Below are positions 4,150 through 64,000 of a stretch of DNA of 64,000 nucleotides, in pieces; the first letter of the stretch is position 1; each line of letters starts with the position of its first letter. A model generated the notes under the pieces. It was not told the origin of the DNA. It saw only the letters and a list, made by a program, of their open reading frames with translations, and searched no databases. The position numbers and the translations under genes are program-made. The stretch is taken from assembly GCA_026874595.1 (NCBI GenBank), contig CM049307.1, forward strand, positions 74,128,643 through 74,192,642, in the 5' to 3' direction. The DNA comes from Sipunculus nudus (lineage: Eukaryota > Annelida > Sipuncula > Golfingiida > Sipunculidae).

Positions 4150-7100
4150 AATACCCAATAATGAGACCTGTATTGAAGAAGCCATTCCCCCTGCTTTCTT
4201 CAGTTTGTGGGCATGATTGAACACGGAGCTGGCATCAAATTACAACTGAGATTTGGTGCCTCCAAGTCAGACCTTGCAATTGCACAGCTTCTGCAGTACA
4301 ACTGCTATGCAAGATATAAGGAAGGAGCGTCAACTCACAGGCATTCCAAAGATCGGGAAACACCATTCCCTGTCTACGTTGGAATGTCCATATATGCCAA
4401 GACCAGGAAGAGGACGCTGGTAAAATGCTTTATGAACATGGCCATAGCATTTCGTATGACAGCGTACTGGAAATATCTGCACAGTTAGGAGATGCAACAG
4501 TAAACAATATAAAGAGGATGGGGTAGTCTGCCCACAAGTTTTGAGAAGAGGGTTGTTCACCATAACAGCCATGGACAACATCGATCACAAACCCACTGCA
4601 ACAACTGCAACCACCTCTTTCCATGGCACGAGCATCTCAGCTTTCCAACACCCGACCAAAGAGAGCCAGGGTGAACACCGTGGACCTCTAAGATATGTTG
4701 AGGGGAAAGTGAAGACAGTTCTAGAACTGCCTGATTCCTTCACCAACATACGCCCAAGAAGAATCCTTCTCCACCAGAGAGCCATGCTGTGAAGATAAAT
4801 CCAGGCATCACTCTGTTAGGACCACAACTGGCACTGGAGTATGAGTGGCTGGAGAAAGTTAGTGTGACTAAAGAAACAGAGAATTTGCCCTGGTCAGCCC
4901 ACCATGCCTCCAAGAAGAGAAGCCCTGAAACTGAGGTTAGCATAACATCAATGTTAACTCTCTTCCAAGAACCAGCCCAATCGGTTGCTATGATCAGACA
5001 TGTCATGGACAAAGTCAAGGAGACTGTGTCTTTCCTGAATCCAGGTCAGATATATACCTGTCATGACTGCTGACCAGCCTATTTATGCATTAGCAAAGCA
5101 AATCCAGTGGTACTGGCCTGAGCAGTATGGTGAGGATAAGTTCGTCATGATGTTTGGAGGCCTACACATTGAGTTGGCTGCATTGAAGTCAATTGGAACG
5201 CTTCTGCAGGAGATTGGCTGGACAGGGGCCCTGGTGGAGGCAGGGATGGCTTCCTCTGGGACTGCAGAATCTTTCCTATCAGCAGCAAGCATCACTAAGA
5301 CACGCCAGGCCCATCAGATAACAGCATGCAGTCTCTACCAACTTTTGAAGGCAGCCTACAATGACTACTGCATTGAGACAGCTGACAACCATGAGGAAGT
5401 GTTGAGCTTTGATGTTTGGTGTGATAGCTGCAAACTGCAAAGCCCCCAGTTTCAGTTCTGGAATTTAATGCTGTCCATGGAACTGGTGATCCTACTACTT
5501 ATCCGAGCATTCAGGGAAGCCAACTTCAACCTGTACTGCTAGGAATTGGCTGAGCTCATCCCATACTTCTTTGCCAACAACAACTTTAACTATGCACGCT
5601 GGCTTCCCATCAATCTCAGAGACATGATCACCCTCAAAGAGAAACATCCCCAGCTGGTCAAGGAATTTGAGAGTGGAAAGTTTGTTGTTCACAAGTCAAA
5701 TCGGGAGTTTTCTGGAATGGCTATTGACCAGGCACATGAAGGGCCTGCAAAATGAGGAAATGAGCACCTTCTATGATCCAATCAAGAAGAATAGGGTGGA
5801 CTTCTTCAGACAGGAACCAGCCTATGCTGATGCTTCAAAGCAGCAAGTGCTGGAGACGGACTACCAGCTCTTCTCCAAGCTTTTCATCTCATGCCAGAGC
5901 AGAGAATGTGACCCGCAGGAGTTCTTTCGCCATGAGAACCAGCAGTTCCCTGCTGCCTTGAGTGAAGGCGGGAAGCTATATACCAGTAAGAAGTCCAAGC
6001 TTGCAGCCATCCTTGAGAGCCAGGTTAACATACCTGATGTGGAACCAGAGGCTGATACAATCATCATTGATGGTTCAGCACTGGTGAACACCCTGTCACC
6101 ACGAAACTTGAATACGTTCGTAGACTACGCCATGTTGGATGTGCTCCCCACAGTAAAAGCATACTCCACCACGTACAAGAGAACAGACATAGTGTTTGAT
6201 GTCTACCAGCCATCGAGTCTCAAGGCTGAAACCAGTTCAAAGCGTGGACATGGAATAGGACAAAGAGTGACAAGCAAGGGCAAACTTCCCTCAAACTGGC
6301 GGAACTTCCTGCGAGACAGTGACAACAAAACTGAGCTGTTTAGGTTCCTGGCTGAAAAGATTGCACAGATGTCTACACCTAACTTGGTCATTGTGACCAA
6401 AGAACAAGATGTTGCCAGCAACCACAAGCTCAGCTTTGATGGGATTGCACCATGTAGTCATGAGGAAGCAGACACACGCATCTTTGTACATGCCAGGGAT
6501 GCAGTGGAGAGGGGGAGCAAGATATAAATGGTAAAAGCCACTGACCCAGATGTCCTCGTCATAGCAATTCAAAGGATGGCCTTTGAACAAGGGTTAAACC
6601 TGAGATGGTTTCCTGTACATGATTTGTTCAACTCCATAGGACCGGAAAAAGCAAAGGAATACTCTTCTTTCATGCCTTCACTGGTTGCGATCTTGTGTCA
6701 GGCTTCCGCAGCAAAGGGAAGAAATCAGCATGGCAAACCTGGGACGTGTGTGTTGAGGCTTCTGATGTGTTTGCCAAGCTCAGCCAGTACCCACCATCAG
6801 TAGATGATGATGATCTGGAGGTCTGGAGAGGTTTGTGGAGACAATGTATGACAGGTCCAGTACAGTTGCACGTGTTGATGATGCCAGGCTGGACTTGTTT
6901 GCTCGGAAGCAGAGGTCTTATTACGCAATTCCTCTAACGAGGGCAGCACTACTTCAGCATGCGAAGCGTGCTGCCTATCAAGCAGGCTGCATATGGAGTC
7001 AGTCTACACTACGTCAACCAGAAACACAGAATCCTGCTGACTGGGGTGGACAAAGATTGGGGATACATGGAAGGTCTTCTGGACAACACTTCCACCTATT

Positions 7101-7587: not shown

Positions 7588-7740
7588 CTGCATGGCGGCC
7601 ATCTTGAAAAAATGGGCAGCCATCTTGATTTTCAAGTGGCCCGCGTACTTTTTCAAAAGAGTAATGTCTAAGAAGTATTTTTGCCAAATTTGGTGCTTGT
7701 ATCACCATTTGAAAGATTGTTTCAGCTATCTGCTGCACTA
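7588..7740 (-). repeat. Right terminal inverted repeat of Academ-like element
   Basis: Reverse complement of 2186-2341, including the inverted ATGGCCGCC-type cores at about 7593 and 7614. It ends in TGCTGCACTA, followed by TTT, which may be the target duplication. Confidence 0.92.
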
Positions 7741-8566: not shown

Positions 8567-9123
8567 GACTGGAGTTAACACTGGCATTAAAATGATATAT
8601 TAAACAGTAAGCACGAGTAAGGCTCCGCACAAGCTGCTGTTCATAAGCTTAAGAGGTGGTGTCGCAAACAACGATATGCATATTTCCTTTCAAACTTCCT
8701 CTTAAATGCAATTTAATTAACTAATTGCTGTGAAATTCATATTAGTATCACTCTTTGCCAGTTCATTTATTTGAAACCCATTTGAACTTATTAATGATAA
8801 CTGAATTAACAGCCGTTCGCCTCTGACAGTCTGAATGAACTATGAGATCGTTTGAAAGCCGTCCCTTGTGTTTTCAAATACTGACTTAATTCAAATTGTA
8901 ATTGAATCTTCCCGCGTTCTTATTAAGCTTGAGTTGGCATTCTGTTGTCATCAATCACTTAGCAGGAATGGCTGACTGCTGACCCCTTCATTCCTCTCCC
9001 AAAACGCAAATTTTAATCCTACTTTCCTCATCATTGAACCAATGCTGCTTGTTCTCAAACATGCCACTATGGGCCAGAAATATCTGGCTCATAAAAAATT
9101 ACTTCAGCCAGTTTAACGGACCT

Positions 9124-9522
9124 CTGTTGCTCAGCGGTAAAGCACAGGACTCAAAGCCGGGAGATCAGAGTTCGAATCTCAGTCGAGACGGTAAGATTTT
9201 TCACGGTCGGCCCCCCACCCAAGGTAAACGTTTTGCAGGCTTAATGGGAAGGTCGTGGCCAACGGCCGTGCTTCACTCACAAACGAGTGCGCCTTTCGGG
9301 GTTCCTTGACGTTATGACCCAGTAATGCGAACGATTACACCTAGGGCCCGCAGGTACAGTAGTCATCGGGCCGGTTAATACCATGATAATATGAGAGGAA
9401 TCCCGTGATACTGCTCTGTCAAGTAAACCAAAACCGGAATTTTATTACGCAGATGTACATATACTTGGTTAAGATAGCATTGAAAAAATGAAGGTTACCT
9501 CCAATACAAATGTAGAAAAAAA
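9124..9522 (+). mobile_element. tRNA-derived SINE, about 400 bp, with 13-bp target duplication
   Basis: The head reads GTTGCTCAGCGGTAAAGCAC (A-box region), followed about 40 bp later by AGAGTTCGAATCTCAG (B box), the internal RNA polymerase III promoter arrangement of tRNA-derived SINEs. A body of about 330 bp follows, ending in an A-rich tail (TGTAGAAAAAAA). The unit is flanked by a perfect direct repeat, GTTTAACGGACCT, at 9111-9123 and 9523-9535. That fixes both ends and shows insertion by target-primed reverse transcription. It encodes no protein and would depend on a partner LINE. The body does not match the other SINE families in this window. Confidence 0.88.
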
Positions 9523-10734: not shown

Positions 10735-11029
10735 AAAAAAATTAGGTGGGGGGATGGTGTGTACAATTTTCCCCACCAGGTTTCTATGGGGAAAAAGCAA
10801 AACTATGGTAATTATGCAATAAATGCCAGTTAATAGTAATAATATTTAATAACGAACGTTATGAGAAGTAACAACTGTCTCGCAACTCCAAACATTCAAG
10901 GAACGTTAATTCGTTATTCAGAGTTTCACCATAGGTTTCCGTATATTTTTTTATCTGCAGTGGAGATACGCTCATAATATTTAATTACAGGCTGACCGTA
11001 ATTACTGCCATCTTTGTATAAGTGTAAGC

Positions 11030-11167
11030 TGACACACAAAAGCGTTCCTACTGGCCTTGCTAGTGAATCTTGCTTTATTAACGAGGCGGTAGAACGTCTG
11101 ACTTGTGTGTCATAGGTTACCGGTTCGAACCCACATTAGGGCCTGGTTTCTATTTTCTCCCGTTACA
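11030..11167 (+). repeat. 5' LTR of TRIM, with tRNA-like boxes
   Basis: It contains a tRNA-like stretch: a degenerate A-box region at about 11,079-11,093 and a B box GGTTCGAACCC at about 11,122-11,132, spaced roughly as in a tRNA gene. The stretch between (CTGACTTGTGTGTC) looks like a tRNA anticodon arm region. Confidence 0.85.
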
Positions 11168-11169
11168 AA

Positions 11170-11188
11170 TGGTGGCAGCGGTGGGATC
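11170..11188 (+). promoter_or_regulatory. Primer-binding site complementary to tRNA-Leu
   Basis: TGGTGGCAGCGGTGGGATC is the complement of the common tRNA-Leu 3' end (…CCCACCGCTGCCA plus CCA). It starts two bases after the 5' LTR, the normal place for reverse-transcription priming. Confidence 0.85.
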
Positions 11189-11300
11189 CGGGGAGTTGGT
11201 GTCGTGGCATAATGCCACACCCAGTTCACGTGTGTGACCCCCGGGATAGATTCCCACGTTCTGGGGACAGAACGTTCTCGGAGAGGGGGTGAATGTTACC

Positions 11301-11438
11301 TGACACACAAAAGCGTTCCTAATGGCCTCGCTAGTGAAGCTTGCTTTATTAGCGAGGCAGTAGAACATCTGACTTGTGTGTCACAGGATACGGGTTCGAA
11401 CCCACATTCGGGCCTGGTTTCTATTTTCACCCGTTACA
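11301..11438 (+). repeat. 3' LTR of TRIM, with tRNA-like boxes
   Basis: Same length as the 5' copy. Its tRNA-like stretch is clearer: TAGCGAGGCAGTAGAAC (11,350-11,366) and GGGTTCGAACCC (11,392-11,403). It could act as an internal RNA polymerase III promoter; activity is not shown. Confidence 0.85.
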
Positions 11439-13442
11439 TAAGTATTCAATTGAATATGCAGACTAGGACCTCCTTAGCTCTATAGCTATATGATAATATG
11501 AATTAATATGTTTCTAAAATTATTCTTCAAATAGCCCATTCTCATAATTCATAATGCATTCAGCCAAAAGCACTGTAACCCAGCAAAACAAGAAAACAAT
11601 TATATAAAAAAAATTATATTACGGTATCTTTATAATCCATACCTCATTCTTTTCCTTAGGTTCTCTAGTTTGCTGATTTAAATAGGGAAAATAAATTAAA
11701 TAAGTCTAATTCAAGATTTTCAAATTTTATTGAAGGAAAATTTTATCTTCAAAATCGTTCCAATATAAGAGGTCAGTGTAGACATAGTCTATAAATTGTG
11801 TATTGCTTATACAGGATCCCAAAGAATTCTTGAACTAACAGGTGCAGTTATGTATTTTAGACAATATGTATAAAGGGAAATAATAAGGAATGTCTAAAAA
11901 GGAGAAATAAACCCCAAAAACCCTTGCGAGAATAGTTAATCATTCTTTTTCGAATTTTTAACTATATATATATATCTAAATTATAATACAGATCATCACA
12001 ACATAATTATTGCAAACAAGCATTCATTTCATAAAATTAAGTAGACATATTTTTTTACATAATTTTAACCAGGGTATAACTTAGTAAATTTTCAATTTTC
12101 TGTCTGTCTTAAAAGTCAAAGACACATAATAGTGTAGAACAAACCGTTCAGCTTTATTCATTTAGGATGAATAGTTAAAAAGTAAAAACTTACAGAAACT
12201 TGTAACATTTTAGCAACATTTATTTGTTTTGTTTTTTTTTATTTGCAGAAAGTAAGGGACATGCCCAATTGTTAGGTTAAACTGTCCAAATTTACAAAAC
12301 TTTTACAGATACATGGCTTAAAATTTTGCATATTTTCTATTGGGAAAATTGAAACTATCAACATGAAGTATTAGGAAAATCAGAGATGGTCATTCAGGAG
12401 GTATTTGTTGACTTCACATGGAATGACCAAAAATGAAAACCATTCCTACAAATATGATATCCCTTTTTCAAAGAAGAAAACTTAGTTTCATAAAAAATTA
12501 TTATTTGCCCTATAATAAAGTAAAAATTGAGCACATTAGAATGAATGAAACTTGATTTTATTAAATGTGTAGCTCGGACTCCAGTTTTTAAATGGATCAG
12601 ATCTCTTTTTATCATATGCTGTGGGCGTAAAGGGCAGACATTGACATTTATGGAAATTGCTGAGAAAATATGTGTCCTGGCTTAAAAAGTGGATGTTACT
12701 GCTGAATGTACTTGACAATCAAAATACACTTATAGTGTTTTCTTCATAAATGCTGACCATTGTGGTTAATGATGAGTTATAAAGTCACTCCTGCAAGTTC
12801 CTACTTCTTTTAGGCTGCTCCCTGTAGTAAACTACTGTATGTATAGGCAGAGTATATCAGCATGAGAAGTTAACGCTTCAGAAAATTTACCTTTAACATG
12901 GAAATTTCTTGAAACTGGAGCCTTATGTTATATACATACTATATCACTGACTATATTATAACTGAGTTTCAAATTCGCGAATAGAAGCGAGAGGAGACGC
13001 CAAACATTCGGGCATTTCTTTGACTAGATTTCTAGAAACTTCTAGGACATCCAGCTCTCAAAGCGTTCATATATTACTGCACCGTTTAAAAGAATAAGAA
13101 CTTAACAAGTATGTGTGTCTCCTGCGTTTTACCTGTTTCCGCCATATGATCATCATAATATCATCACATGGCATAATATAAAATGACGCAAATGATAATA
13201 AAAATATATCTGTACAGTTAACTTTCGACAACCATTGGGTTTTATTTCATTATTTAGCGTGCTTGATAAAACCCCCTTAATCAAGCTTCGAAACAGATTT
13301 TTTCCGAATATATTCAGGTTTATAATATAATAATTTTGATAATTTTGTATTTACCCCGTTTATTATTTATTATCGTCTTGATATTATGATTTTTCGAGTG
13401 ATTTATCATTAATCTTTATCACAGTTGTGGATTCCGCAACAA

Positions 13443-32737: not shown

Positions 32738-34913
32738 CCGTAATCAGAGTTTCCACCAAAGACGTCACCGTCCATAATACGGCGTGCCATGGCCGGAACA
32801 TCAGTGATAGCAGGGCATCATTTTTACCACAATATCAATAATAATATGACATAAACTATAACGTGAACTCAAAGATGACCCGACATAATATATAACATGA
32901 CATCAGTGATACCATTATTTATAACGTTATATGAATGACAAAAAACATCAATAGTAAGACGACATAAGTGAAAATGTGACGTCAGCGATGACAAAATATA
33001 TCCAGGCAAAATTACATGACCGATTTTTAGCTATTCCCGCCTATATTACGACCCAGTACATCTGACCGGCCCGGTGTGCCACTACATTTGATCCAGACAA
33101 AGAATAAACAGTTTCACGCCGATGAACATATATATTTCAAGAAAGTAGTCGGGGACCACAGTGTACTCCGCCAGGACCTTCTCACATGTAGGAGGTATTC
33201 AACAACTCCATTTACTGGTCAGCTGACTCTGGGTCTCTTCAGGGACAAAGTTTTTAGTTACGTATGTCACAATAGACTGAAACAATATGATTTTGATTCA
33301 GATTATACCTAAAATTTAATAGATTGTTCCTGGGGCTTTATCCTATCTCTCCACAAATTTTCAACAGAATCTGTTCAGATTTTATTGCGCAAAACTGCTC
33401 ATAGACAAGTCTGGGGTAAAACATAACATCTCCCGCCATCTAGCGGAGGTTTTATAATTCTCTATGTAACTGAACTCCTGTCACACTTAATTTTAAATAA
33501 AAAAAAAGTATTTCATATTTTCTCACGCCATTAGATAGACTCTATCAACAGGCATGTATACTTTACCCGAACTAATGGAATAACGTGACAGGGTATGGCA
33601 AATAGAGGGAACATGCTTTTAATCATAGTGGGTTTATCAGCAGTTTTTCTCGCATATAACTGTAACACGTGCTCAAAATACAAAGGAAGTTACAGTCTGT
33701 GGGCTTTCTTATTTCGTTGGTCCACCATGTTTTTTCCATCTAAAGCCAAGAACTGACAGGTAAGGCATTATAGGGAACTTCGGTTTTAATCATACGTAGG
33801 TCGATAAAATGTATGCCGGCTGCATACTCTAATATAACATCAGACAAAATACCGCGGTTGTCATGAGACAACAAAGCTTTCTTCATTACCTATGACGGCA
33901 AATTACTATTGTCACGGCAGAAAAAAGGTCACTTATGTTAAGTAATAATGACATCTTCAAATGAGCTTCAGTGGGTTCGTCCAAGGTACACTGAAGTGAA
34001 GCGTATTGGATTTGGTCGAAAACGGTCAATTTTTTTATCCGATTATCTCACTACATTATCAGTTTATAAAAAAAACAACCGAAGCTGATTATTCAATTAA
34101 GTAAGATATACTCTCCTAGACTGGCCCCTTGTTGTTGTAAGGTAAAGTATGCTTTGTCCTGAGTACAAGTTGTATCCATAACAAAGCGCCCTTCAGCTCA
34201 CAGTAGTAACATAACAAATCTACAATAGATATAAAGCTGAGATTTGCCCGGTTGCCTTCTCCCTGTCTTGTTGTCATGGATACAACAGATGATATGTAAC
34301 CACTATACAACTGGGAAATGTATATATTTAAAAAAAAATGTTGTAACTTGATTGGTATAAAATGATGCGTTCAGCAGGGCAAAAATAGCGCTGGGTGGTT
34401 AGTTTTAGAGCTAAAATCTTGTGTGTTGTTAAAATATTCTTTTTTTTTTGGATGAAAAAATAATCTTGATAATTTTGTATTCGTTGTAATAGATGTATCT
34501 ATGAATACAAGACCCTGCCGCTTCTCGGTGCATGGAAACGACAGATAAGGGGGAAAAAATTCAAATCTTTAAAATGTATGACATCGCTCTAAATATGATG
34601 AAATGTGTATTTTACCTGAATAGGCCGACTGTTGTACGTCAGGTTACCCGTTTTCGCCCCTTTTTGATTACGCCAAGGCCTTCCCTATTTGATCGCACGA
34701 TTGATCCACGATCTGGTGTTGGCACGATCAGTTTTTAAAAATTTGCCCCGATTGGTCAAGAGTACTTGATACCCGTGGTAAAGAAACTGGTGGCACGACT
34801 GGTGGCACCCGGATTGATGACGAATCATGTCGATCAGTATTGACCATGGGACTGGTTTTCGTGACAAGCGACCAACCGTGCGACTAGTCGTGGTTTCTAT
34901 AAATTTTATTTAT
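32738..34913 (+). repeat. Left arm of long inverted repeat
   Basis: Reverse complement of the right arm, by eye about 85-90 percent identical where aligned. Clear blocks: the outer 55 bp; 33,283-33,450 (TCCCGCCATCTAGCGGAGGT); 34,100-34,320 (CTAGACTGGCCCCTTGTTGT, GTCCTGAGTACAAGTTGTAT); 34,690-34,900 (CAAGAGTACTTGATACC, GGTGGCACGACTGGTGGCAC). It carries about 450 bp (about 32,840-33,283) absent from the right arm and bordered by ACAATAT on both sides, so probably an insertion. Confidence 0.93.
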
Positions 34914-38873: not shown

Positions 38874-39320
38874 TGTTATTTGTTTTATAGTGTTGCACGT
38901 GTCTGTTGACATTCTGATTCGTGTTAGGCAGACCTTGGTTTATTGTGCGCAGGAGTGTTACATGTGTCTGTTAGGCAGGCATAGTACGTTGCCATGGGAG
39001 ACGTGCGAGTTTGGCTGGCTTGCGTGTGGGGTCTGAAGTGTAAAAACACAGCGTTCTTTGTTCTAAATGTTTCAGGTCTGTTCCTGTAAATCTGTATTGT
39101 TCTTTGGAGTTTTCAATTTCTAGTATTTTCGGAGGAGAAGCTATAAATTAGGGGCTGGGTTTAGAGCCGAGGGTGAGAAAAATTCCAGTAGACACGGAAT
39201 AGTGTGAGTCAGTTTTGGTACCTTACCGATAATTGCAGTGGGGTAAGATATATAACGGACTTAATACTGATTTTATACGGACTGTCTCCAGTTGCCTTTG
39301 GAGTATTACATTTTCACAAG
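38874..39320 (+). repeat. 5' LTR of Gmr1-like element (recognisable part)
   Basis: Aligns with the 3' LTR from TGTTATTTGTTTTATAG to the GCCTTTGGAGTATTACATTT block. It includes TATAAATTAGG (about 39,142), a likely core promoter, and TCTTTGGAGTTTT. The remainder of the LTR is not recognisable. Confidence 0.85.
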
Positions 39321-39389
39321 ATCTAGTAAGCAAAGGTTTAACTGAAGAGAGTGAAGTGGAAACATAAAAAAATAACAGCCTTGCTATGC

Positions 39390-40330
39390 AGTTAGAATTA
39401 AAAAAGTTAGAAATGCAACATGAGCTAGCATTAAAGAAGTTAAAATTAGAAAAAGATAAACAAAGAGAAGACAGGGAATGGAAAAAACAAAGAGAAGAGG
39501 GGGAAGAACATGAAAGATTAGAAAGAGAATGACTAGAAAAAGAAGAAGAAACTGAGTTTAAACGACTGGAGTTAGACTTAAACTAGAACATGATCTACGT
39601 GCTGCCCGAACTCACAGTTTTCATGTTACTAAACACATTAGACTTGTCCCACCTTTTTAAAGAAAAGAGGTATATAAATATTTCTTACACTTTGAGAAGG
39701 TAGCTGAAAATTTAAAATGGCCTAAAGAAAATTGGACTATGCTATTACAAAGTGTATTGACTGGCAAGGCCACAGAAATTTATACAGAATTTTCAGTAGA
39801 AGACGCTGCATGCTGACTATGACCAGGTTAAACGGTTAATCCTTAAAGGTTATCAGTTAGTTACGGAGGCTTACCGCAAGAAATTCAGAAATTGGGAAAA
39901 GCGAAAGAACAGACCTTTGTAGAATTTGCTAGGACAAAAGAGCAGTTGTTTGATCGCTGGTGTAGTTCTAAAAATGTACATGTAAAAAAAGACAATTTGC
40001 CCCAGTTGATTTTGCTTAAAAAATTTAAGCGCTGCATTCACGCAGATGTTAAAACTTTTCTTGATGAGAAAATTCCTGAAAAAAAACATGACTTTGCTGC
40101 TCAATTAGCTGATGATTATTCATTAACACACAAAATGTCCTTTACTAGCAAATCAAACCAGTCATTCATAAACAAGAATGTAAATCAGTATGCTCAAAAG
40201 AAGTTTAAGGCGAAGTCACACAGTACTAGTATTCCTGATAGTTCAACAAAGTCCAAGAAAATCTGTTTTTATATAAGGAAGGCCATCTAATATCTGACTG
40301 CTGGAAACTTGCAAATAAACCGAAGAGCAA
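39390..40330 (+). pseudogene. gag remnant of Gmr1-like element
   Basis: A Lys/Glu-rich, coiled-coil-like segment is followed by capsid-like wording (YFLHFEKVAE-like, WPKENWTMLLQ, TGKATEIYTEF, then AKEQTFVEFARTKEQLFDRW). The latter resembles the retroviral-type capsid C-terminal domain of Gypsy gag proteins. It would form the particle that packages element RNA. The remnant is decayed. Its position directly after the 5' LTR fits. Confidence 0.65.
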
Positions 40331-40839
40331 ATCATCTGGTTTTCCATGCATAGCATAGTACAAGAACCAAGCTCTTTTCATGTAAATAAGGGGTACAACT
40401 CATTTTTCTGACTCGATGCTACGGAGGCCAACGTTCCGTCAGACTCCAAAGAAGGATCCCTAGCTTGCGGGATAAAATCTTTATTTGATTTTTGCTAGGA
40501 ATTTAAGGCTAGGTCCTTTCAAGACTCCTGCGAGGAGTTTCCTCTGAATAAGGCTAAGTCCTTTTATGACTCTTGTGAGAGTATTTCAAATGAGGCCAGG
40601 TCCTCTAATGACAAACAGAAGTTTTTTTTCTGCTGAGGAATATTCCTCTGTTGACTCAAATGAGGAGATTGTAATAAGGATGTAGTTCCCTTAGTGACTC
40701 TGAAAAGAGTTTATGACTGACACTGTTCTTTGTTTGATGAAACTGAGGTAGTAGATTCCTCTCCTAACTCTGAAATGGAGTTATTTGAGCCATTCATACA
40801 TGATGGTTTTGTATCACTTTCAAGTGATTATTCAGATTC

Positions 40840-42530
40840 TACCCCTATTAGAATTTTGAGGGACACTGGTTCGGGCCAAATTCATATGTGAGCAAACACT
40901 TTAACATTTGCTAATAGGTCTTTTACTGGTCCACATGCAATTGTTAATGGTGTGTTTTCAGACAAGAACACTTCAGTTCCGCTTCACAGTGTACATTTAA
41001 AGTCAGATTTGATATATTGGAATATTACTGTGGGCATATGAACTACTTTACACTTTAAGGGAAATCAGTTGCTGCTAGGCAATGATGTTGCAGGTGACAA
41101 AGTACATCCTGTACCAATAGTGACAGAAAAGTCGTCACTTGATCAGGACACACTGATCCGGAAAGTCAGGAAATTCCTGGTTTGTATCCTTCATGTAACT
41201 AGATCTATGGCCAAGAAAAAACACACATGAGGATAATGGTTCAATAATAACACTCTGGGAGTCACTAGTGACTCGTCTAACGAATCGCCCGTACAGGATG
41301 CAGCATTTTCAAGGTCAAAACAATCGCGGAACAGCATAGGGATCCTGATATTTCATGTTTGTTTCCCAGGGCAGTTTCTAAAGATAAACTGTCACAGAAC
41401 CCAGTTTGTTTGAATGTTAAAAATGGTGTGCATATGCATAAATGGCGAACACCTGATGTATGCGCTGATGATGAGTGGACCATCAAACATCAAATAGAAA
41501 TGCCCAAAAGCTTTCGCAATGATGTTCTAAGCATGGCACATGAGGCTCCTTTGTCTTGCCATTTAGGTATAAATAAAACTTTTCAGAAAGTTAGTTCACA
41601 CTTCTATTGGCTTAACCTCAAAACGATGTTGTACAATAATGTTAGTCATGTCATACATGCCAGATGGTAGGCAAGCCCAATCAGAATCCTCCAAAGCTCC
41701 ACTCAGGCCTATTCCTTCTTTCGAGGAACCTTTTAGGATGATTATTGTTGATTGTGTTGGACCACTGCCCAAAACAAAATCTGGACATGAATACTTGCTG
41801 AAAATTATGTGCGCATCTACCACATTCCCTGAGACAATACCATTGCGTAAAATTAATGCCAAAAGTATTGTCAAGACTCTGACCAAGTTTTTTACAATTT
41901 TTGGATTACCAAGATCCGTCCACTCTGACCAAGGGTCTAATTTTATGTCTGGCTTATTCCAGCAAGGTATGCTTAAGCTAGGTATAAAACAGTACAGCTG
42001 TTCGCCAAACCATCCTAAAAGTCAGGGCGCCCTCGAGCGTTTTCACCAGACATTAAAAAAATGATAAGGACCTATTGCTATGACACACAGAAAGACTGGG
42101 ATGAAGGAATCCACCTATTGCTGTTTGCTGTCAGAGAAGCCTTTCAAGAGTCCTTGGGTTTCAGTCCTTTTGAACTAGTTTTTGGACACTCAGTTCGCGG
42201 TCCATTGAAACTGCTAAATGAAATACTCTTGTTTGAAAATCCTGATTCTCTTAGTTTACTGCAGTATGTCTCAGACTTTCGCACTAAACTACACAATGCT
42301 TGCGAGATTGCAAAGTCAAATCTAAAATCTGCACAAAGAAAAATGAAAACAAAGTATGACGAGCACAGTGTAAGTAGGACGTTTGAGTCTGATGAAAAAG
42401 TCCTTGCCTTACTACCCTTCCCTTGCAGACCTCTTCAAGCTAGGTATTTTTGTCCTTACATTGTTGACAAGAAAGTCAATGATTTAAATTACATAATTAC
42501 ATACTGTTGATACCAGATAGGCGTAAAAAA
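40840..42530 (+). pseudogene. Protease and integrase remnant of Gmr1-like element
   Basis: A DTGS aspartic-protease motif lies near 40,863 and LLLGNDVAGDK near 41,070. The integrase follows: an HHCC-type N-terminal region (HEAPLSCHLGINKT, about 41,540-41,580), then the core with VDCVGPLPKTKSGHEYLL (about 41,750), SDQGSNF (about 41,925) and PNHPKSQGALERFHQTLK (about 42,008-42,060). SPFELVFG follows further on (about 42,160). It would cut and join element DNA into the genome. It lies upstream of reverse transcriptase, which identifies the clade. Broken. Confidence 0.85.
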
Positions 42531-42789
42531 AACCCCACTGTGCCATGTTAACATGTTGAAACCATATTATGACAGAAATAGCTCATCAGATGTTGTACAA
42601 AATGTTACTGCTAGTCATTGTGTAAAAACTGACCCTGACACAGTTAAAGTAGTTACGATTGTAAGTGTTATGTAGACATTCAGTGTGGAACATTAAAACT
42701 AAAAACTCAGACATGCTTAACAACCTGGATGCCAAACTGTCACACCTTGACGCACAACAATAACAAGGCCTCCAGAACCATTTGTTATG

Positions 42790-44083
42790 TGACATTCCAA
42801 CGCGAACGAACATATTGTGTCATGACGTCGATGTTGGCGAGGCAAGCGCAATCAAGCAGCATCCGTATAGACTAAATCCAGAAAAGCAAAAGTATCTACA
42901 AGATGAGGTTCAATATTTGCTGGACAATGATTTTATTGAACCTAGTAACAGTAACTGGAGTTCACCATGTATTCTTGTGCCAAAATCTGATGGAAGATAC
43001 CGTATGTGCTCGGATTGTCAAAAACTGAACTCTCTCACCAAGACTGACACGTTTCCGATTCCGAGGATCGATGATTGTATTGATAGAGTCGGTAGCTCAA
43101 GGTATGTCTCCAAGTTTGACTTACTAAAATAATTCTGGCAAGTTCCGCTGACGGAACAAGCGAAAGAAGTGTCCGCATTTGTGACACCGCAAGGACTGTA
43201 CCAGTATAAAGTTATGCCGTTTGGCATGCAGAACTAGCCAGCAACGTTCCAGCGCCTCATCCATATGGTTGTCAAGGACATTCAGGGCTGCGACGCATAT
43301 AATGATGACCTTATCGAGAACAGCGACACCTGGGAGAAACATCTGCAAATTCTTTGCGATCTCTTTGAAAGACTCAGTGAAGCACGTCTGACTGTCGACT
43401 TAGTCAAATCTGCGTATTGTCATGCACAAGTAATATTTTGGGTCATATTGTAGGGCAGGGTCAAGTTAAACCTGTTGATGCAAAAATAAGTGCTGTTTCT
43501 GCATTTCCTGGACTAGAAAACAAAAAGCAAATAATGCGTTTTCTTGATATGGTTGGATAATACAGGAAGTATTGTCAAACCTTTGATTAATTTATTAAAG
43601 AAGAAACAAAAGTTTGTATGGAATGTTCAGTGTGAAAATGCATTTCAGAATATGAAAGCAATTCTGCAGAGTTCAACAGTTTTAGCAGCTCTAGACTTTT
43701 CTGTACCTTTTAAGTTAGATGTAGATGCTAGTGATAATGCTACTGGTGCTGTGTTGTTACAAGAAGGCAGTAATGGCGTAGATCATCCAATTTGTTATTT
43801 TTCAAGAATGTTTAATGCAAACCAGAAACACTACTCCACTATATAAAAAGAAAGTTTGGCTTTGATTTTGGCATTGCAACATTTTGAAGTTTATGTTACT
43901 TCATCAGTCAAGCCTATCATTGTCTTCAGTGATCACAATCCCCTCATGTTCATGAACAAGTTGAAGTGTAAAAATCAAAGATTGTTGAGGTGGAGTTTGT
44001 TTTTACAGGATTACAAAATTGAAATAAGACACATTAAAGGGAAAGAAAATGTACTTGTTGATTGCTTATCGAGATGTTTATGA
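42790..44083 (+). pseudogene. Reverse transcriptase and RNase H remnant of Gmr1-like element
   Basis: The reverse transcriptase begins with the HPYRLNPEKQ-type lead-in, followed by FIEPSNSNWSSPCILVPKSD and the CSDCQKLNSLTK and FPIPRIDD block (about 42,860-43,080). The YxDD box is near 43,300. RNase H starts with FKLDVDASDNATGAVLLQE (about 43,710) and ends with HIKGKENVLVDCLSR near the 3' LTR. It copies element RNA into DNA and removes the RNA. There is no integrase downstream, unlike ordinary Gypsy elements. Broken. Confidence 0.87.
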
Positions 44084-44175
44084 AATGAGATTTTGTGTAG
44101 TGTTTTAAATAAAATGATTTTGAAATGTTGTAAAAATTTAGTGATTGTGATCGCATAAAGAAAGTTAAAAAAAAG

Positions 44176-44787
44176 TGTTACATGTATCTGTTTTATAGTG
44201 TTGCATGTGTCTGTTGGCATTCTGATTTGTGTGAGGCAGGCCTTGGTTTATTGTGCGCAGGAGTGTTACATGTGTCTGTTAGGCAGGCAAAGTTCGTTGC
44301 CATGGGGGACGTGCGAGTTGGGCTGGCTCGCGTGTGGGGTGTGAAGTGTAGAAACACGGCGTTCTTTGTTCTAAAAGTTCCTTTAACCTGGGTATTGTTC
44401 TTTGGAGTTTTAAATTTCTAGTATTTTCGGAGGAGAAGCTATAAATTAGGGGCCGGGTTTAGACCCGAGGGTGAGAAAATTCCAGCGGACACGGAAGGAT
44501 GAGAGTCAGTTTTGGGGGGTAACCGTTCATTGCAGTGGTGTCAGATATTTAACGGACTTAATACTGATTTAATACGGACTGTCTCCAGTTGCCTTTGGAT
44601 TATTACATTTCACGTGGATCATTGGATTTAAACAACTCTTGTTGAGCTGTGACAGTGGTAGTATCCATATATCAAAGTCTAGACATTTCACGCTGCCTAG
44701 TGTTACAGAATCTATTTTTTTTTATCTCCATAACAAAATTTATGCTCGTCATGACTGCGTGATCTGTGGTTATTAGGTTCCGTTACA
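44176..44787 (+). repeat. 3' LTR of Gmr1-like element
   Basis: Starts TGTTACATG and ends GGTTCCGTTACA. Its 3' block (ACATTTCACGCTGCCTAGTG to the end) matches the solo LTR at 14,509-15,350. A duplicated TGTTACATGTGTCTGTT word occurs near its start and again near 44,269. Confidence 0.88.
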
Positions 44788-47039: not shown

Positions 47040-47770
47040 GGTTTTATGACAGTGTTCTTTGACCAGTTTTTGTCAGGTCAATGTTGAAATCACCTGCAAT
47101 GATAATTTGTGATCCTCCGTGCATATTGATTACGTTTTTAATGCAATCACTGATTTCATATAATGGAGTTCTTGGTGGACAATACATGAGTAACAATGAA
47201 TCGCAGTTGTGTCTTGTTGTTTCTGTATGATTAGATTTGCTGCTACTGCATCAATTGTGGTGTAAGTCTGTAGAGGTATTTTCTGCAATGAACATCTTCC
47301 ACGTGAGCAGAGAACTGCACCTCCACCATGATGTGATGTTCTGGCACAGGATATTGAGTTTCTATACCCAGGGATGGTGAAATTATCAGTGAGTTGCCAT
47401 GTTTCAGTTACCGCCAAAACAGAAGATGTTTGGCATATGGATCATGAATAAAGTCAGTAATGTGTGCAGGACCGAGTGACTGGGAATTGAAAAAGCACAA
47501 ACGGATGCAAGGGAAGGATCTTGTCAGTAATGAGGGTGGCTTGCTTTTGTTGTTGCAGTCTTAGTATTTCTTCTGATACTGCACAATCTGTCTTAATGGA
47601 ATGTTGTTTGAAATTTGAGAGCAAAATGCCTTGTAGTGAGGTTACACGACTGAATGCTACATATGCTTGCCCTTTGGTTTGGAGTTTGTTGAAGGAAATG
47701 ACAACTTGACTTAATGATGCACACTGTACCTTGTGAATTGTGCAAGCCCAGCTTGGGACCTTATATGAAA
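47040..47770 (-). pseudogene. Helentron-type helicase C-terminus fused to AP-like endonuclease, remnant
   Basis: Read on the minus strand, about 47,770-47,640 gives SWACTIHKVQ and GQAYVAFSRVTSLQG, the last motifs of PIF1-type helicases. SNFKQHSIKTDCAVSEEILRL follows, the usual PIF1 tail. After a short linker come TETWQLTDNFTIPGYRNS (about 47,405-47,350), a GGGAVL block and IIIAGDFNID (about 47,105-47,077), motifs of LINE-type AP endonucleases. A PIF1 helicase directly followed by such an endonuclease is the layout of the Rep-helicase-endonuclease protein of Helentrons (Helitron2). Only this part is present, with at least one frame change in the linker. Rep and the N-terminal helicase motifs are absent. 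Confidence 0.75.
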
Positions 47771-48163
47771 TACTTTTTACGAGTTATTGTGTTAACAATG
47801 TGTGTCCTTTTGCATGCATATTTGCTAAGAGAGCGCAACCTTACTAGGTGTTCAGTAATGGTTTTTACCGCATAATTTACAGAAAAATGGCTGACTATGA
47901 CCATATATCATGCCTTGTTGCTGTTGACATGAGGACCTGTCATACTGTTAAGGTGGAACAAACAATTATGGTTACAATTATGATTTCTGACCTACTGAAA
48001 GAGGGACCTAAAATTTAACACCAAACTGTGAATAACTTTTTTGACCTTTGACCTCCGGACCCCTAAATCGATAGGGATCTTCCATAATTGACGGTTAATA
48101 CATATTTCAGGTTTGAACTCAATCACTCAATCCACACTGGAGTTATCATCCGGAAATGAATTT

Positions 48164-48245: not shown

Positions 48246-48275
48246 GGCACCCGCTTTTCAAGCGGGGCCCTAATA
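48246..48275 (+). repeat. GC-rich hairpin followed by TAATAA, possible Helitron-type 3' end
   Basis: GGGCACCCGCTT and AAGCGGGGCCC pair across TTC, then TAATAA follows. Helitron-class elements end in a short GC-rich hairpin close to the terminus, and sequences of this type with CCCTAATAA are frequent in bivalves. It lies at the inner edge of the right 2-kb arm and about 500 bp from the Helentron helicase remnant. It could equally be the end of a separate non-autonomous element. Confidence 0.45.
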
Positions 48276-48282
48276 AAGTTTA

Positions 48283-50302
48283 TAATACACCACGACCAGT
48301 TGCACGATTGATCGCTAGTCACTAAAACTAGTCCCACGGATAATACTGATCGAAGTGATTCATCATCAATCCGGGTGCCACCAGTCGTGCCACCAGTCGT
48401 ACGATTCTCTACCACAGGTATCAAGTACTCTTGACCATTTCAGAATCGAGGTTAAATTTGAGGACTGGTGGTACCAAAACCAGATAATGGATCAATCGTG
48501 CGAACAAATACTGAAGGCCTTGGCGTTATCAAAAAGTTGCGAAAACTTCACGTACACGACAGTCGACCTTTTCAGGTAAAATGCACATTGCCTCATATTC
48601 AGAGCGATAAGTCATACATGATACAAGATGGAATCATTTTTCGTCATTTTTCGTTTTCCCCGAAAATTCACCGAGGATCGACAGGGTCTTGTATTCATAG
48701 ATACATCTATTACAACTAATTCAAAATCATCAAGATTAATGTTTCATAAAAAATATCTTAACAACACACAACATTTTAAGCTCTAACATTATTTTTGCCC
48801 CGTTCCCCGCATCATTTTTTATACTAATCTAGTTACATGCATTTCTCAGTTGTATAGTGGTTACATGTCATCTTTTGTATCCATGACAACCAGACAGGGA
48901 GAAGGCAAACAGACATATCATTGTTTATATTTGTTGTAGATTTGTTATGTTACTACTGTGAGCTGAAGGGGGCTTTGTCATGGATACAACTTGTACTCAG
49001 GACAAAGCATACTTTACCTCACAACAACAAGGGGCCAGTCTAGGAGAGTATATCTTACTTAATTGAATAATCAGCTTCGGTTGTTATTTTTATAAACTGA
49101 CAATGCAGTGGGATAATTGGATAAAAAAATTGACCGTTTTCCACCAAATCCAATACGCTTCACTTCAGTGTACCTTGGACGAACCCTCTGAAGCTCATTT
49201 GAAGATGTCATTATTACTTAACATTAGTGACCTTGTTTTCTGCCGTGACAATAGTAATTTGCCGTCATAGGTAATGAAGAAAGCTTTGTTGTCATGGCAA
49301 CCGCGGTTTTTTGTCTGATATTGTGTTAGAGTATACAGCCGGCATAAATTTGTCGACCTACGTATGATTAAAACCGAAGTTCCCTATAATGCCTTTCCTG
49401 TCATTCAGTTCCTGGCTTTAGGTTCAAGAACAAAAATGATGGACCAACGAAATTTAAAAGCCCACAGACTGTAACTTCCTTTGTAGTTTGAGCACGTGTT
49501 ACAGTTATATGCGAGAAAAACAGCTGATAAAGCCACTTTGATTAAAAACATGTTCCCTCTTTTTGCTATACCCTGTCACGTTATTCCATTAGTCCGGGTA
49601 AAGTACACATTCCTCTTAATACAGTCAATCTATTGGCGTGCGAAAATATGAAAGGCTTTTTTTTTTAATTCAATATTTAGTGTGAATTGAGTTCAGTGAC
49701 ATGGAGAAATATGATACCTCCGCTAGATGGCGGGAGGTGTTATGTACCTTTTACCCCTGACTTGACTATGAGCAGCTTCACACAATAATATCGTAACAGA
49801 GTCTGTTGAAAAGTTATTGGAAACATAGGACAAAACCTCGGGAACAAACATTTAAATTTTGGGGATAATCTGAATTAAAATCATATGCTTTTATTCTTTT
49901 ACAAATGATGTCCTGTTATCACTGATGTCCCGGTCATTTAACATGCATATTATGCTGTAGTTACTGACCTAATCACGTCTCGTTCTAAACGTTACATTCA
50001 ACACTGGGACATTTGGCCAGGGTCTTAACCACATTTGTTATGGGATTAAACCAGTCCAGTTACAGCTAGTTTCATCGTCTGAATACTGAATTGATAGACC
50101 GGAAAATAAACCTGAAAGGAGACGTATCATGACATGTCTGACGCTACACAGTGTATTTAACTACGGGTTTATTGTCGAAACAATCTAGTATCTGTCTTGC
50201 GCTTGTCTAAATCTGAGACGTCGGTTCTTTCGTTACCAAGTGACTGGAGATGGCACGCCATATAATGAACGGTGATGTCTCTGGTGGAAACTCTGATTAC
50301 GG
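48283..50302 (-). repeat. Right arm of long inverted repeat
   Basis: Reverse complement of 32,738-34,913, ending outward at CTCTGATTACGG followed by TTAA. About 310 bp (roughly 49,945-50,255) are absent from the left arm. The arm contains no open frame of note. Confidence 0.93.
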
Positions 50303-51735: not shown

Positions 51736-52060
51736 GGATGGTGTAATGGTTAGTGCAGTGGACTCGTGGGGGCAAGGTTGTGGGTCCACGTCCCGACTTG
51801 AATGCCTTCCGCGCTAAGACTCCCGGCCAAAGTGTTTGCCAAAAGGATGCGCTCTCTCCAACAAGGAGCGAAAGGTACCGGTCATCCATGAACGGGAGCC
51901 AAATGTAGAACAAAAAGACTGTTTAGCACCGTGTGTGGCTGCTTGGTTGTATGCTCCCCAGGGAGCCAAGACAAGCAACAAGAATAAAAAGGCCCGAAAG
52001 ACCAAGAAGTCAAAGTGAAAAGTCAGATGAGAGTGACGTCACTGATCTCAGAACATAACC
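51736..52060 (+). mobile_element. tRNA-derived SINE (third family in the window)
   Basis: The head reads GGGATGGTGTAATGGTTAGT (A-box region), then GTTGTGGGTCCACGTCCCG (eroded B box) about 35 bp later, folding like a tRNA with CGGGA/TCCCG ends. A GC-richer body of about 250 bp follows. No A-tail or target duplication was fixed, so the 3' limit is approximate. The 60-codon frames crossing it are Lys-rich by composition only. Confidence 0.6.
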
Positions 52061-54407: not shown

Positions 54408-54833
54408 GCAAAATATACTGGTCTACTATAGCCCACTCTAGTCCTCTTTATCAAACAGGAAAATTGGTGGCATTTATTGATGATGTTAAAAAATAAGGAG
54501 TGCACTCAGCAGAGCGCATTTACCACCGCCAAAAGTAACATCCTACTGGATCAACCCCTCAATCCAGATCCGATGGAAAATTCAGTAGGATCTTCTCCAT
54601 GCTGAGTCCAACTTAGTCACTACTACGGTTATTTTTGCTTGAAACATTTTGACCTGATCGGCATTTCTAACATGGCTAAATTATAAACAATATCTTATAT
54701 AAATACTCACAAAGTTTCGTGGATAATTGATATTCACAATTACATTTTATATCTACAAAATTACCAAGATTCATTTATAATGTTTTTAAAAGAGTTTGCC
54801 TTATCCTGTTGACAACCAACGAACATATAAACA
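54408..54833. other. Unassigned stretch before the satellite array
   Basis: No gene recognised; the array begins after AACATATAAACA. Confidence 0.4.
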
Positions 54834-56892
54834 AGATGACCAGAGGTCACGCGCTTGCCGGAAATGGAAATGATACAGACAGATAGAGAGTGCATGTAGA
54901 AACAGTCATATGAATGAGCAACATTATGGGGGCAGCAGAAACGGATAATATGTTTATTTATGCATGCTGACCTTTAACAGCTGCATATCTTTCTAGTGTA
55001 AAAGGGACCAAGTTCAAAATATTTTCATGAAATCCCGTTAATCTCGTTTGACAAGAAGCAGTGAGACGTTTTCAGGTTTGTCATGTCAAGCTGGTCATAT
55101 GTGACAAAATGCCGAAAACTAGAACTACTTTGTTGTAAAAGGCGCCGAGTTATAAGCATTTCAGTGACATCTCGTTTGTTCACGTTGCACAAGATATGGT
55201 GCGAGATTTGGGCAGACTTATGGCTTTATCTAATCAAGCAGTTCATATGTGACACAATGCCGAAAACTAGACCTTCGTACCTGTAAAAATCGCCGAGTTA
55301 AAAGCATTTTGGTGAAATCTCGTGTTTTCTCGTTTGACGAGATACGGTGCGAGATTGTGCCTGACTTGGAGTTCTGTCATGTCAAGCGGGTCATGTGGAA
55401 CTAAATGCCGAAAACTAGACCTGTCTAGCTGCAGTTCCGTGAAATCTCGTGTTTTCTCGTTTGACGGGATACGGTGCGAGATTTTGCCTGACATGCATGT
55501 CTGTCGTGTCAAGCTGGTCTAGTGGAACAAAATGCCGAAAACCAGACGTGTCTATCTGTAAAACTCGCCGAGTTATAACCAATGCCGTGAAATCTCATGT
55601 TTTCTCGTTTGACGAGATACGGTGCGACATTCGGCCTGACCTTCAGTTCTGTTATGTCCTGCTGGTCATGTGAAAGAAAATGCCGAAAACTAGACCTGTC
55701 TAGCTGTAAAACTCGCCGAGTTATAAGCATTTCCGTGAAATCTCGTGTTTTCTCGTTTGACGAGATAGGGTGCGAGATTTGGCCTGACTTGCACATCTAT
55801 CGTGTCAAGCTGGTCATGTGGAAGGAAATGCCGGAAACCAGACGTGTCTAGCTGTAAGACTGGCCCAGTTATAAGCATTTCCGTGAAATCCCGTGTTTTC
55901 TCGTTTGACGAGATACGGTGCGAGATTTGGCCTGTCTTGCAGCTCTGTCGTGTCAAGCTTGTTTGGTGGAACGAAATGCCGAAAACCAGACCTGTCTAGC
56001 TGTAAAAGTCGCCGAGTTATAAGCATTTCCGCGAAGTCTCGTTTTTTCTCGTTTGACGAGATATGGCGCGAGATGTGGCGTGACTTTCATTTCCGTCGTG
56101 TCAAGCTGGTCATGTGGAACAAAATGCCGAAAACTAGACCTGTGTAGCTGTAAAACTGGCCCAGTTATAAGCATTTCCGTGAAATCCCGTGTTTTCTCGT
56201 TTGACGAGATACCGTGCGAGATTTGGCCTGTCTTGCAGCTCTGTCGTGTCAAGCTTGTTTGGTGGAACGAAATGCCGAAAACCAGACCTGTCTAGCTGTA
56301 AAAGTCGCCGAGTTATAAGCATTTCCGCAAAGTCTCGTTTTTTCTTGATTGACGAGATATGGCGCGAGATTTGGCGTGACTTTCATTTCTGTCGTGTCAA
56401 GCTGGTCATGTGGAACAAAATGCCGAAAACTAGATCTGCCTAGCTTAAAAACTGACAAAGTTACAAAAAAATGGTCGTGTTATTTCCCATTTCCATGATT
56501 TTTGCCCAAAAAATGTAACCATGGTAACGGCAAATTTAAGTAAGCTACATATCAAAAGAAAGGCCAGGTGATGACGAAAAAAATGAGCTATTGCAGAAGT
56601 GGATAAGCCTATTTATGGCGAAGTTATAGTGGAAAAACCATTAACCACACCTGTCGTGAACTTGACCCTTGACCTTGAAGCAATGTTGACCAAAAACAAT
56701 AGGGTTCCAGGGTGTTCGGTTGTCAATCAACCCTGTAAGGGTCATGTCGATTGCTGCAAAATTGTGGCCAGGAGAGCGCAGACAAACACACAAAAAAACA
56801 AACAAAAAAACAAACAGACAACCGGACATACGCAACTGACCAACCAACTTGCCGAAATCGAAGTTTTCCGGCAAGCAACAAAAAAACAAACA
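54834..56892 (+). repeat. Satellite super-unit 1 (2059 bp)
   Basis: Ten monomers follow a 270-bp leader (GCATGCTGACCTTTAACAGC). The tail contains an (ACAAA)n tract and a hairpin CTTGCCG...CGGCAAG (56,848-56,875). Almost identical to super-unit 2. Confidence 0.9.
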
Positions 56893-58871
56893 AGATGACC
56901 AGAGGTCACGCGCTTGCCGGAAATGGAAATGATACAGACAGATAGAGAGTGCATGTAGAAACAGTCTTATGAATGAGCAACATTATGGGGGCAGCAGAAA
57001 CGGATAATATGTTTATTTATGCATGCTGACCTTTAACAGCTGCATATCTTTCTAGTGTAAAAGGGACCAAGTTCAAAATTTGTTCATGAAATCCCGTTAA
57101 TCTCGTTTGACAAGAAGCAGTGAGACGTTTTCAGGTTTGTCATGTCAAGCTGGTCATATGTGACAAAATGCCGAAAACTAGAACTACTTTGTTGTAAAAG
57201 GCGCCGAGTTATAAGCATTTCAGTGACATCTCGTTTGTTCACGTTGCACAAGATATGGTGCGAGATTTGGGCAGACTTATTGCTTTATCTAATCAAGCAG
57301 TTCATATGTGACACAATGCCGAAAACTAGACCTTCGTACCTGTAAAAATCGCCGAGTTAAAAGCATTTTGGTGAAATCTCGTGTTTTCTCGTTTGACGAG
57401 ATACGGTGCGAGATTGTGCCTGACTTGGAGTTCTGTCATGTCAAGCGGGTCATGTGGAACTAAATGCCGAAAACTAGACCTGTCTAGCTGCAGTTCCGTG
57501 AAATCTCGTGTTTTCTCGTTTGACGGGATACGGTGCGAGATTTTGCCTGACATGCATGTCTGTCGTGTCAAGCTGGTCTAGTGGAACAAAATGCCGAAAA
57601 CCAGACGTGTCTATCTGTAAAACTCGCCGAGTTATAACCAATGCCGTGAAATCTCATGTTTTCTCGTTTGACGAGATACGGTGCGACATTCGGCCTGACC
57701 TTCAGTTCTGTTATGTCCTGCTGGTCATGTGAAAGAAAATGCCGAAAACTAGACCTGTCTAGCTGTAAAACTCGCCGAGTTATAAGCATTTCCGTGAAAT
57801 CTCGTGTTTTCTCGTTTGACGAGATAGGGTGCGAGATTTGGCCTGACTTGCACATCTATCGTGTCAAGCTGGTCATGTGGAAGGAAATGCCGGAAACCAG
57901 ACGTGTCTAGCTGTAAGACTGGCCCAGTTATAAGCATTTCCGTGAAATCCCGTGTTTTCTCGTTTGACGAGATACGGTGCGAGATTTGGCCTGTCTTGCA
58001 GCTCTGTCGTGTCAAGCTTGTTTGGTGGAACGAAATGCCGAAAACCAGACCTGTCTAGCTGTAAAAGTCGCCGAGTTATAAGCATTTCCGCGAAGTCTCG
58101 TTTTTTCTCGTTTGACGAGATATGGCGCGAGATGTGGCGTGACTTTTATTTCCGTCGTGTCAAGCTGGTCATGTGGAACAAAATGCCGAAAACTAGACCT
58201 GTGTAGCTGTAAAACTGGCCCAGTTATAAGCATTTCCGTGAAATCCCGTGTTTTCTCGTTTGACGAGATACCGTGCGAGATTTGGCCTGTCTTGCAGCTC
58301 TGTCGTGTCAAGCTTGTTTGGTGGAACGAAATGCCGAAAACCAGACCTGTCTAGCTGTAAAAGTCGCCGAGTTATAAGCATTGCCGCAAAGTCTCGTTTT
58401 TTCTTGATTGACGAGATATGGCGCGAGATTTGGCGTGACTTTCATTTCTGTCGTGTCAAGCTGGTCATGTGGAACAAAATGCCGAAAACTAGATCTGCCT
58501 AGCTTAAAAACTGACAAAGTTACAAAAAAATGGTCGTGTTATTTCCAATTTCCATGATTTTTGCCCAAAAAATGTAACCATGGTAACGGCAAATTTAAGT
58601 AAGCTACATATCAAAAGAAAGGCCAGGTGATGACGAAAAAAATGAGCTATTGCAGAAGTGGATAAGCCTATTTATGGCGAAGTTATAGTGCAAAAACCAT
58701 TAACCACACCTGTCGTGAACTTGACCCTTGACCTTGGAGCAATGTTGACCAAAAACAATAGGGTTCCAGGGTGTTCGGTTGTCTATCAACCCTGTAAGGG
58801 TCATGTCGATTGCTGCAAAATTGTGGCCAGGAGAGCGCAGACAAACACACAAAAAAACAAACAAAAAAACA
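56893..58871 (+). repeat. Satellite super-unit 2 (1979 bp)
   Basis: Same monomer order and the same 127-bp short unit as super-unit 1, with few substitutions. It lacks about 80 bp carrying the tail hairpin. Near-identity indicates a recent duplication of the whole unit. Confidence 0.9.
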
Positions 58872-63717: not shown

Positions 63718-64000
63718 AGATGACCAGAGGTCACGCGCTTGCCGGAAATGGAAATGATACAGACAGATAGACAGAGAGTGCATGTAGAAACAGTCATATG
63801 AATGAGCAACATTGTGGGGGCAGCAGAAACGGATAATATGTTTATTTATGCATGCTGACCTTTAACAGCTGCATATCTTTCTAGTGTAAAAGGGACCAAG
63901 TTCAAAATTTTTTCATGAAATCCCGTTAATCTCGTTTGACAAGAAGCAGTGAGACGTTTTCAGGTTTGTCATGTCAAGCTGGCCAAATGATATGAAATGC
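63718..64000 (+). repeat. Satellite super-unit 5, partial
   Basis: Leader of a further unit; the window ends shortly before its first monomer is complete. Confidence 0.9.

Follow-up and report, generated by a model that had tools for sequence, protein, structure and literature searches.

The locus considered here lies in a 64,000-nucleotide stretch of Sipunculus nudus DNA, which we analysed as a whole and call the window. It raises the question of whether an LTR element too short to carry genes may take its promoter from tRNA-like sequence in its long terminal repeats (LTRs), and to which class such an element would belong. An earlier note, made from the letters alone, had read the locus as a TRIM whose LTRs hold tRNA-like RNA polymerase III (Pol III) boxes, and had proposed it as an animal analogue of the plant TRIM Cassandra.

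Boundaries, primer site and surroundings of the element

The LTR element spans 11023-11438 (416 bp in total). With a length under 1000 bp, two LTRs and no assigned protein genes, it has the make-up of a TRIM. Its LTRs form a direct repeat pair on the plus strand (11023..11167 and 11294..11438), each 145 bp long and bounded by TG and CA, with 126 bp of internal region between them. The pair aligns without gaps at 91% identity, 13 of the 145 sites being different, which corresponds to a Jukes-Cantor distance of 0.095. The 5′ LTR starts with TGTAAG and the 3′ LTR with TGTTAC, and the termini end in GTTACA. Directly outside them, the target site duplication TAAG can be read on the left (11019..11022) and on the right (11439..11442) of the plus strand. 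The earlier note had described a 409-bp element with 138-bp LTRs; the LTR pair is real, but the start given for it, 11030, leaves the element and its LTR 7 bp short on the 5′ side. Among stop-to-stop frames of at least 85 aa, a single one overlaps the element (90 aa, 11213-11485), and it extends beyond the element's end. The 9% divergence of the LTRs indicates that the insertion is old, and the copy at 11023-11438 is probably inactive by now.

The primer-binding site TGGTGGCAGCGGTGGGAT begins 2 nt after the 5′ LTR (11170..11187, plus strand). Compared with the reverse complement of a tRNA 3′ end plus CCA, it agrees at 18 of 18 positions with tRNA-Leu(AAG), whose complement we take it to be; the letters of this tRNA, like those of all 14 tRNA reference sequences used for the primer-site and likeness tests, were entered by hand. 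The 13 other tRNAs tried agree at 8 to 15 of the 18 positions, and the second-best site for the 18-mer in the window reaches 13/18 (plus strand). At the other end of the internal region, the polypurine tract GGAGAGGGGGTGAA (11280..11293, plus strand, by direct reading) directly adjoins the 3′ LTR and consists of purines with a single T. The TRIM anatomy put forward earlier is thus borne out, tRNA-Leu primer site and purine tract included: the LTR pair, the TG and CA ends, the TAAG duplication, the primer-binding site and the polypurine tract are all present.

Other copies were sought with the element as a blastn query on the window (E up to 1) and with the primer-site pattern at up to three mismatches, and no second copy was found in the window. 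Besides the LTR pair, blastn returned only the element itself, an inverted repeat internal to the LTR and, at 31302, a single match of 16 bases. Exact LTR patterns found nothing in viral and prokaryotic contig collections, nor did the primer-site pattern in the viral contig collection or the whole element in a plasmid collection (E up to 0.01), all of these being collections with little bearing on animal genomes.

Several other repeats lie in the window. Inverted repeats of about 127 bp that are 91% identical (2217-2341 and 7592-7718) enclose several frames and are perhaps the ends of a DNA transposon; the frames 5039-5539 and 5628-6524 between them matched nothing in Pfam at E up to 0.01. Two inverted 1.7-kb repeats with 83% identity (33271-34910 and 48272-49900) are perhaps one dispersed element present twice. 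On the minus strand, a 109-aa frame at 47457-47783 gives a helicase match (PF02689) just under the Pfam cut-off, which we take to recall a Helitron or PIF1-type helicase remnant. From 54813 to 64000, arrays of a 148-bp tandem repeat are nested in longer repeated units, one of 2.0 kb (99% identical) and one of 2.8 kb (94% identical). Finally, a broken Gypsy-like LTR element occupies 38877-44610, with LTRs that are 88% identical. Its integrase pieces (H2C2, rve) precede its RNase H piece, with a SCAN-like domain upstream, a domain order that presumably recalls Gmr1-like elements. It was considered as a partner of the TRIM and rejected, as it is without a Leu primer site (best 9/18 in 39251-39420).

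The tRNA-like stretch and its possible transcription

Each LTR holds an exact B box, GGTTCGAACCC, on the plus strand (11122..11132 and 11393..11403). Elsewhere in the 64 kb, on both strands, this sequence occurs only as its own palindromic overlap. Upstream of each B box is an A box that is imperfect in both LTRs, by direct reading of the plus strand (TAACGAGGCGG at 11079..11089 in the 5′ LTR and TAGCGAGGCAG at 11350..11360 in the 3′ LTR). The earlier note had described just this, a perfect B box with a weak A box. That the B box is unchanged does not speak for conservation, since the LTRs differ at so few sites and 11 bases often stay intact by chance at 9% divergence.

The boxes belong to a longer tRNA-like stretch, which runs on the plus strand from the A box to what would by count be tRNA position 73 (11079..11143 and 11350..11414). 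Of the 14 tRNAs compared, tRNA-Lys-TTT gives the best local match, with scores of 14 for the 5′ LTR and 18 for the 3′ LTR; on the opposite strands the scores are 11 and 12. Such a match could be chance in an unrelated LTR, and 3 of 500 dinucleotide shuffles of the 5′ LTR do reach its score, the highest of them at 16. None of 500 shuffles of the 3′ LTR reaches 18, however (shuffle means 9.7 for the 5′ and 9.6 for the 3′ LTR, sd 1.2), and in a search of the whole window with a sequence-only profile of 12 tRNAs (nhmmer) the LTRs rank second and third, with E 6.6e-5 on 11085-11134 and E 0.0078 on 11360-11410. We therefore regard a chance match as very improbable.

First in that ranking stands a SINE-like stretch of tRNA origin at 9122-9189, whose A and B boxes are good; it has no match to the element in the blastn search of the window (E up to 1). 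A further weak tRNA-like stretch, possibly another SINE, lies at 51737-51796 (E 0.09 with the tRNA profile).

When positions are counted at fixed offsets from the T loop, the part between the D arm and position 73 is as long as in a tRNA, and the best tRNA-Lys-TTT alignment has two one-base gaps that cancel each other. By the same count and by eye, two of five pairs can form in the T arm and one of five, a G-T, in the anticodon stem, and the place of the anticodon loop reads CTTGTGT. ARAGORN found no tRNA. The earlier note had proposed a tRNA covariance check on each LTR: sequence likeness is above chance, but the Rfam tRNA model is unmatched, both in the whole window at gathering and in 10800-11600 with E up to 10. 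With neither ARAGORN nor Rfam matching, a tRNA gene is ruled out as the identity of the stretch. Judged from its sequence, the LTR stretch is tRNA-like, above chance, but not a tRNA fold.

The stretch occupies matching positions in the two LTRs and was therefore most likely in the element before insertion. A SINE that landed after the integration of this copy was rejected on the same ground: when an element inserts, a single template gives rise to both LTRs, so a later landing is disfavoured, although LTR-LTR conversion might afterwards have carried a late arrival from one LTR to the other. A SINE landing in the LTR of an ancestor may be compatible with a stretch in both LTRs, and this is the origin that Kojima proposed for the TRIMs named Helenus (PMC10886601).

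If the boxes are used, TFIIIC and Pol III would act on the A and B boxes of the 5′ LTR, and transcription would start upstream of the A box, at a point that we set 12 nt before it. The element contains two runs of at least four T on the plus strand, a single one per LTR and 20 bases downstream of the B box (11153..11156 and 11424..11427), each a possible Pol III terminator. The polymerase would read through the run in the 5′ LTR and stop at that in the 3′ LTR, and the resulting RNA would be ~360 nt long with a repeated end region. tRNA-Leu would then prime the first strand at 11170 and the purine tract the second; the reverse transcriptase copying the RNA would be that of a tRNA-Leu-primed Gypsy-type element, and the partner's integrase would insert the copy, making the 4-bp duplication. 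The transcription and partner steps are inferred from the anatomy of the element.

A T4 run in the 5′ LTR also implies an early Pol III stop there unless it is read through, which is a real difficulty for Pol III transcription of the element. The same run, which would cut a Pol III transcript short, favours a different reading, in which the element is a normal Pol II TRIM and its LTR at some time took up a SINE or tRNA fragment that has since ceased to drive transcription, with the B box surviving by chance or via a short palindrome. The imperfect A box and the lack of a cloverleaf point in the same direction, as does the SINE-like 9122-9189 nearby, which indicates that such fragments occur in the genome. 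None of the Pol II motifs tried (AATAAA, ATTAAA, TATAAA, TATATA and CCAAT), however, is present on the plus strand of the element, which counts for little given the shortness of the LTR, and a captured fragment without function sits less well with a tRNA-like length kept from the D arm to position 73. On balance, we consider a Pol II element with a captured fragment rather unlikely.

The LTR palindrome and LTR-LTR pairing

Each LTR is also predicted to fold on itself, a feature absent from the earlier note. Positions 8-90 of the LTR form a long imperfect palindrome in which TGACACACAA pairs with TTGTGTGTCA, with more matched blocks inside. The predicted hairpin lies at 11030..11112 in the 5′ LTR and at 11301..11383 in the 3′ LTR (plus strand), with energies of -36.9 and -39.8 kcal/mol for the hairpin alone; its register in the 5′ LTR is somewhat different from that in the 3′ LTR. 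As RNA, the whole LTRs are predicted to fold at -47.5 kcal/mol (5′, z -3.4) and -58.4 kcal/mol (3′, z -6.3), energies reached by 1 of 200 and 0 of 200 shuffles, respectively. The fold of the internal region is unremarkable (z -0.9; 35 of 200 shuffles as good). When 83-nt segments were taken every 41 nt on both strands of the window, the element included, the fold of the 5′ hairpin was equalled or bettered by 6 of the 3118 and that of the 3′ hairpin by 2. The differences between the LTRs were also mapped onto the hairpin, with the fold of the 3′ LTR as reference; by construction this choice favours the 3′ LTR, and nothing is drawn from it.

Between 11079 and 11112, the hairpin's right arm coincides with the left half of the tRNA-like stretch, and the left arm lies upstream of the predicted transcription start. 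The overlap and the low LTR folding z-scores could mean that the palindrome is the constrained feature of the LTR and that the A-box and anticodon side resembles a tRNA only as a by-product. The likeness, however, extends past the palindrome, through the B box to position 73, and we find this explanation quite improbable.

Pairing between the LTRs is prominent in the predicted fold of the whole element, which has 75 LTR-LTR pairs and an energy of -177.0 kcal/mol. Neither value is reached by any of 200 controls with shuffled LTRs, for which the LTR-LTR pairs have a mean of 18.5 (sd 14.2, largest 67) and the energies a mean of -141.2 kcal/mol (sd 6.5, lowest -166.8 kcal/mol). With the same LTR placed at both ends, the 3′ LTR gives 68 LTR-LTR pairs and the 5′ LTR only 10, a difference which suggests that pairing within and between LTRs competes. 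The palindrome might be a selected part of an animal Pol III-promoter TRIM, with the full hairpin present only at the 3′ end of the RNA, or with an LTR-LTR super-hairpin in a longer transcript; we hold this to be unlikely.

Placement among TRIMs with Pol III promoters

Retrozymes are defined by a hammerhead ribozyme in their LTRs. Neither the Rfam search of the whole window at gathering nor that of 10800-11600 with E up to 10 gave a hammerhead or a 5S match, and a ribozyme-bearing retrozyme and a 5S-bearing TRIM were both rejected as identities of the element.

The comparison with Cassandra drawn by the earlier note is apt: Cassandra is likewise a TRIM with Pol III promoter-like sequence in each LTR. 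It is also described as having self-complementary LTRs with a predicted LTR-to-LTR super-hairpin that is conserved (PMC7215508), and LTR-to-LTR pairing is predicted for the element here as well. Unlike the present element, Cassandra is found in plants and carries 5S rRNA rather than tRNA sequence in its LTRs, and its promoters and terminators are reported as conserved across species (PMC7215508), whereas the element here is known from a single copy. Among animal elements, the nemertean TRIM Ajax is similar in length (421 and 434 bp) and in its tRNA-Leu primer, but differs in its 5S rRNA-derived LTRs and 5-bp target site duplication (PMC10886601). The bivalve biv-TRIMs are likewise animal TRIMs with inverted repeats, but these are placed in the inner domain and not in the LTR, and no canonical primer-binding site was identified (PMC6934838); the word polymerase is absent from the main text of that paper.

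The closest description is that of Helenus, the name given by Kojima in 2024 to TRIMs with tRNA-like LTRs (PMC10886601). Fungi, one plant and six animal phyla are reported to contain Helenus elements, whose lengths are 311-1263 bp overall; the animal members have 4-bp duplications and Gypsy-like primer sites. The element here is, in the same way, a short, geneless LTR element with a tRNA-like stretch holding A and B boxes in its LTRs, a primer-binding site and a polypurine tract. Its 416 bp fall inside the published range, its TAAG duplication is of 4 bp as in animal members, and a B box containing GGTTC is present in both LTRs. Its tRNA-Leu primer has counterparts in hymenopteran and vertebrate Helenus, and its best match, tRNA-Lys-TTT, recalls the published alignment of hymenopteran and molluscan Helenus with tRNA-Lys (legend of Figure 2, PMC10886601). 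Since tRNA-Leu is missing from the primers listed there for bivalve Helenus, the Lys likeness and the primer together do not indicate one published group. The A box fits less well. Most Helenus share the motif TRGCY and YGG (PMC10886601), whereas the 5′ LTR here has TAACG and CGG, keeping only YGG, and the 3′ LTR has TAGCG and CAG, keeping TRGC but neither the Y nor YGG. None of the terms hairpin, inverted or palindrom is used in the main text of PMC10886601.

Placed by its structure against the published description, the element at 11023-11438 is probably an old TRIM of the Helenus type, a group for which the name TRIMp3 (TRIMs with Pol III promoters) has been proposed (PMC10886601), and this placement includes the inferred Pol III transcription and Gypsy-type partner. 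It thus looks like a new example in a class already described in 2024 and not like a new kind of element. An animal analogue of Cassandra, which the earlier note had implied to be unreported, has already been published as Helenus (PMC10886601); among the papers listed in our literature searches, no other one uses the name Helenus, and the others found for TRIMp3 deal with different subjects.

To a class described only in 2024, the element adds an example in which primer site, purine tract and target duplication are all present. Pol III use by this class is not yet validated in PMC10886601, where activity is held not to be concludable without experiments. A demonstration of Pol III use in an animal member would lend weight to the view that captured small-RNA promoters can drive LTR elements as they do SINEs. 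The palindrome of the LTRs offers a testable link to Cassandra. Were the palindrome indeed a selected part of such elements, an RNA architecture would be common to Pol III-promoter TRIMs, independently in plants and animals, and the structure would perhaps serve packaging or strand transfer.
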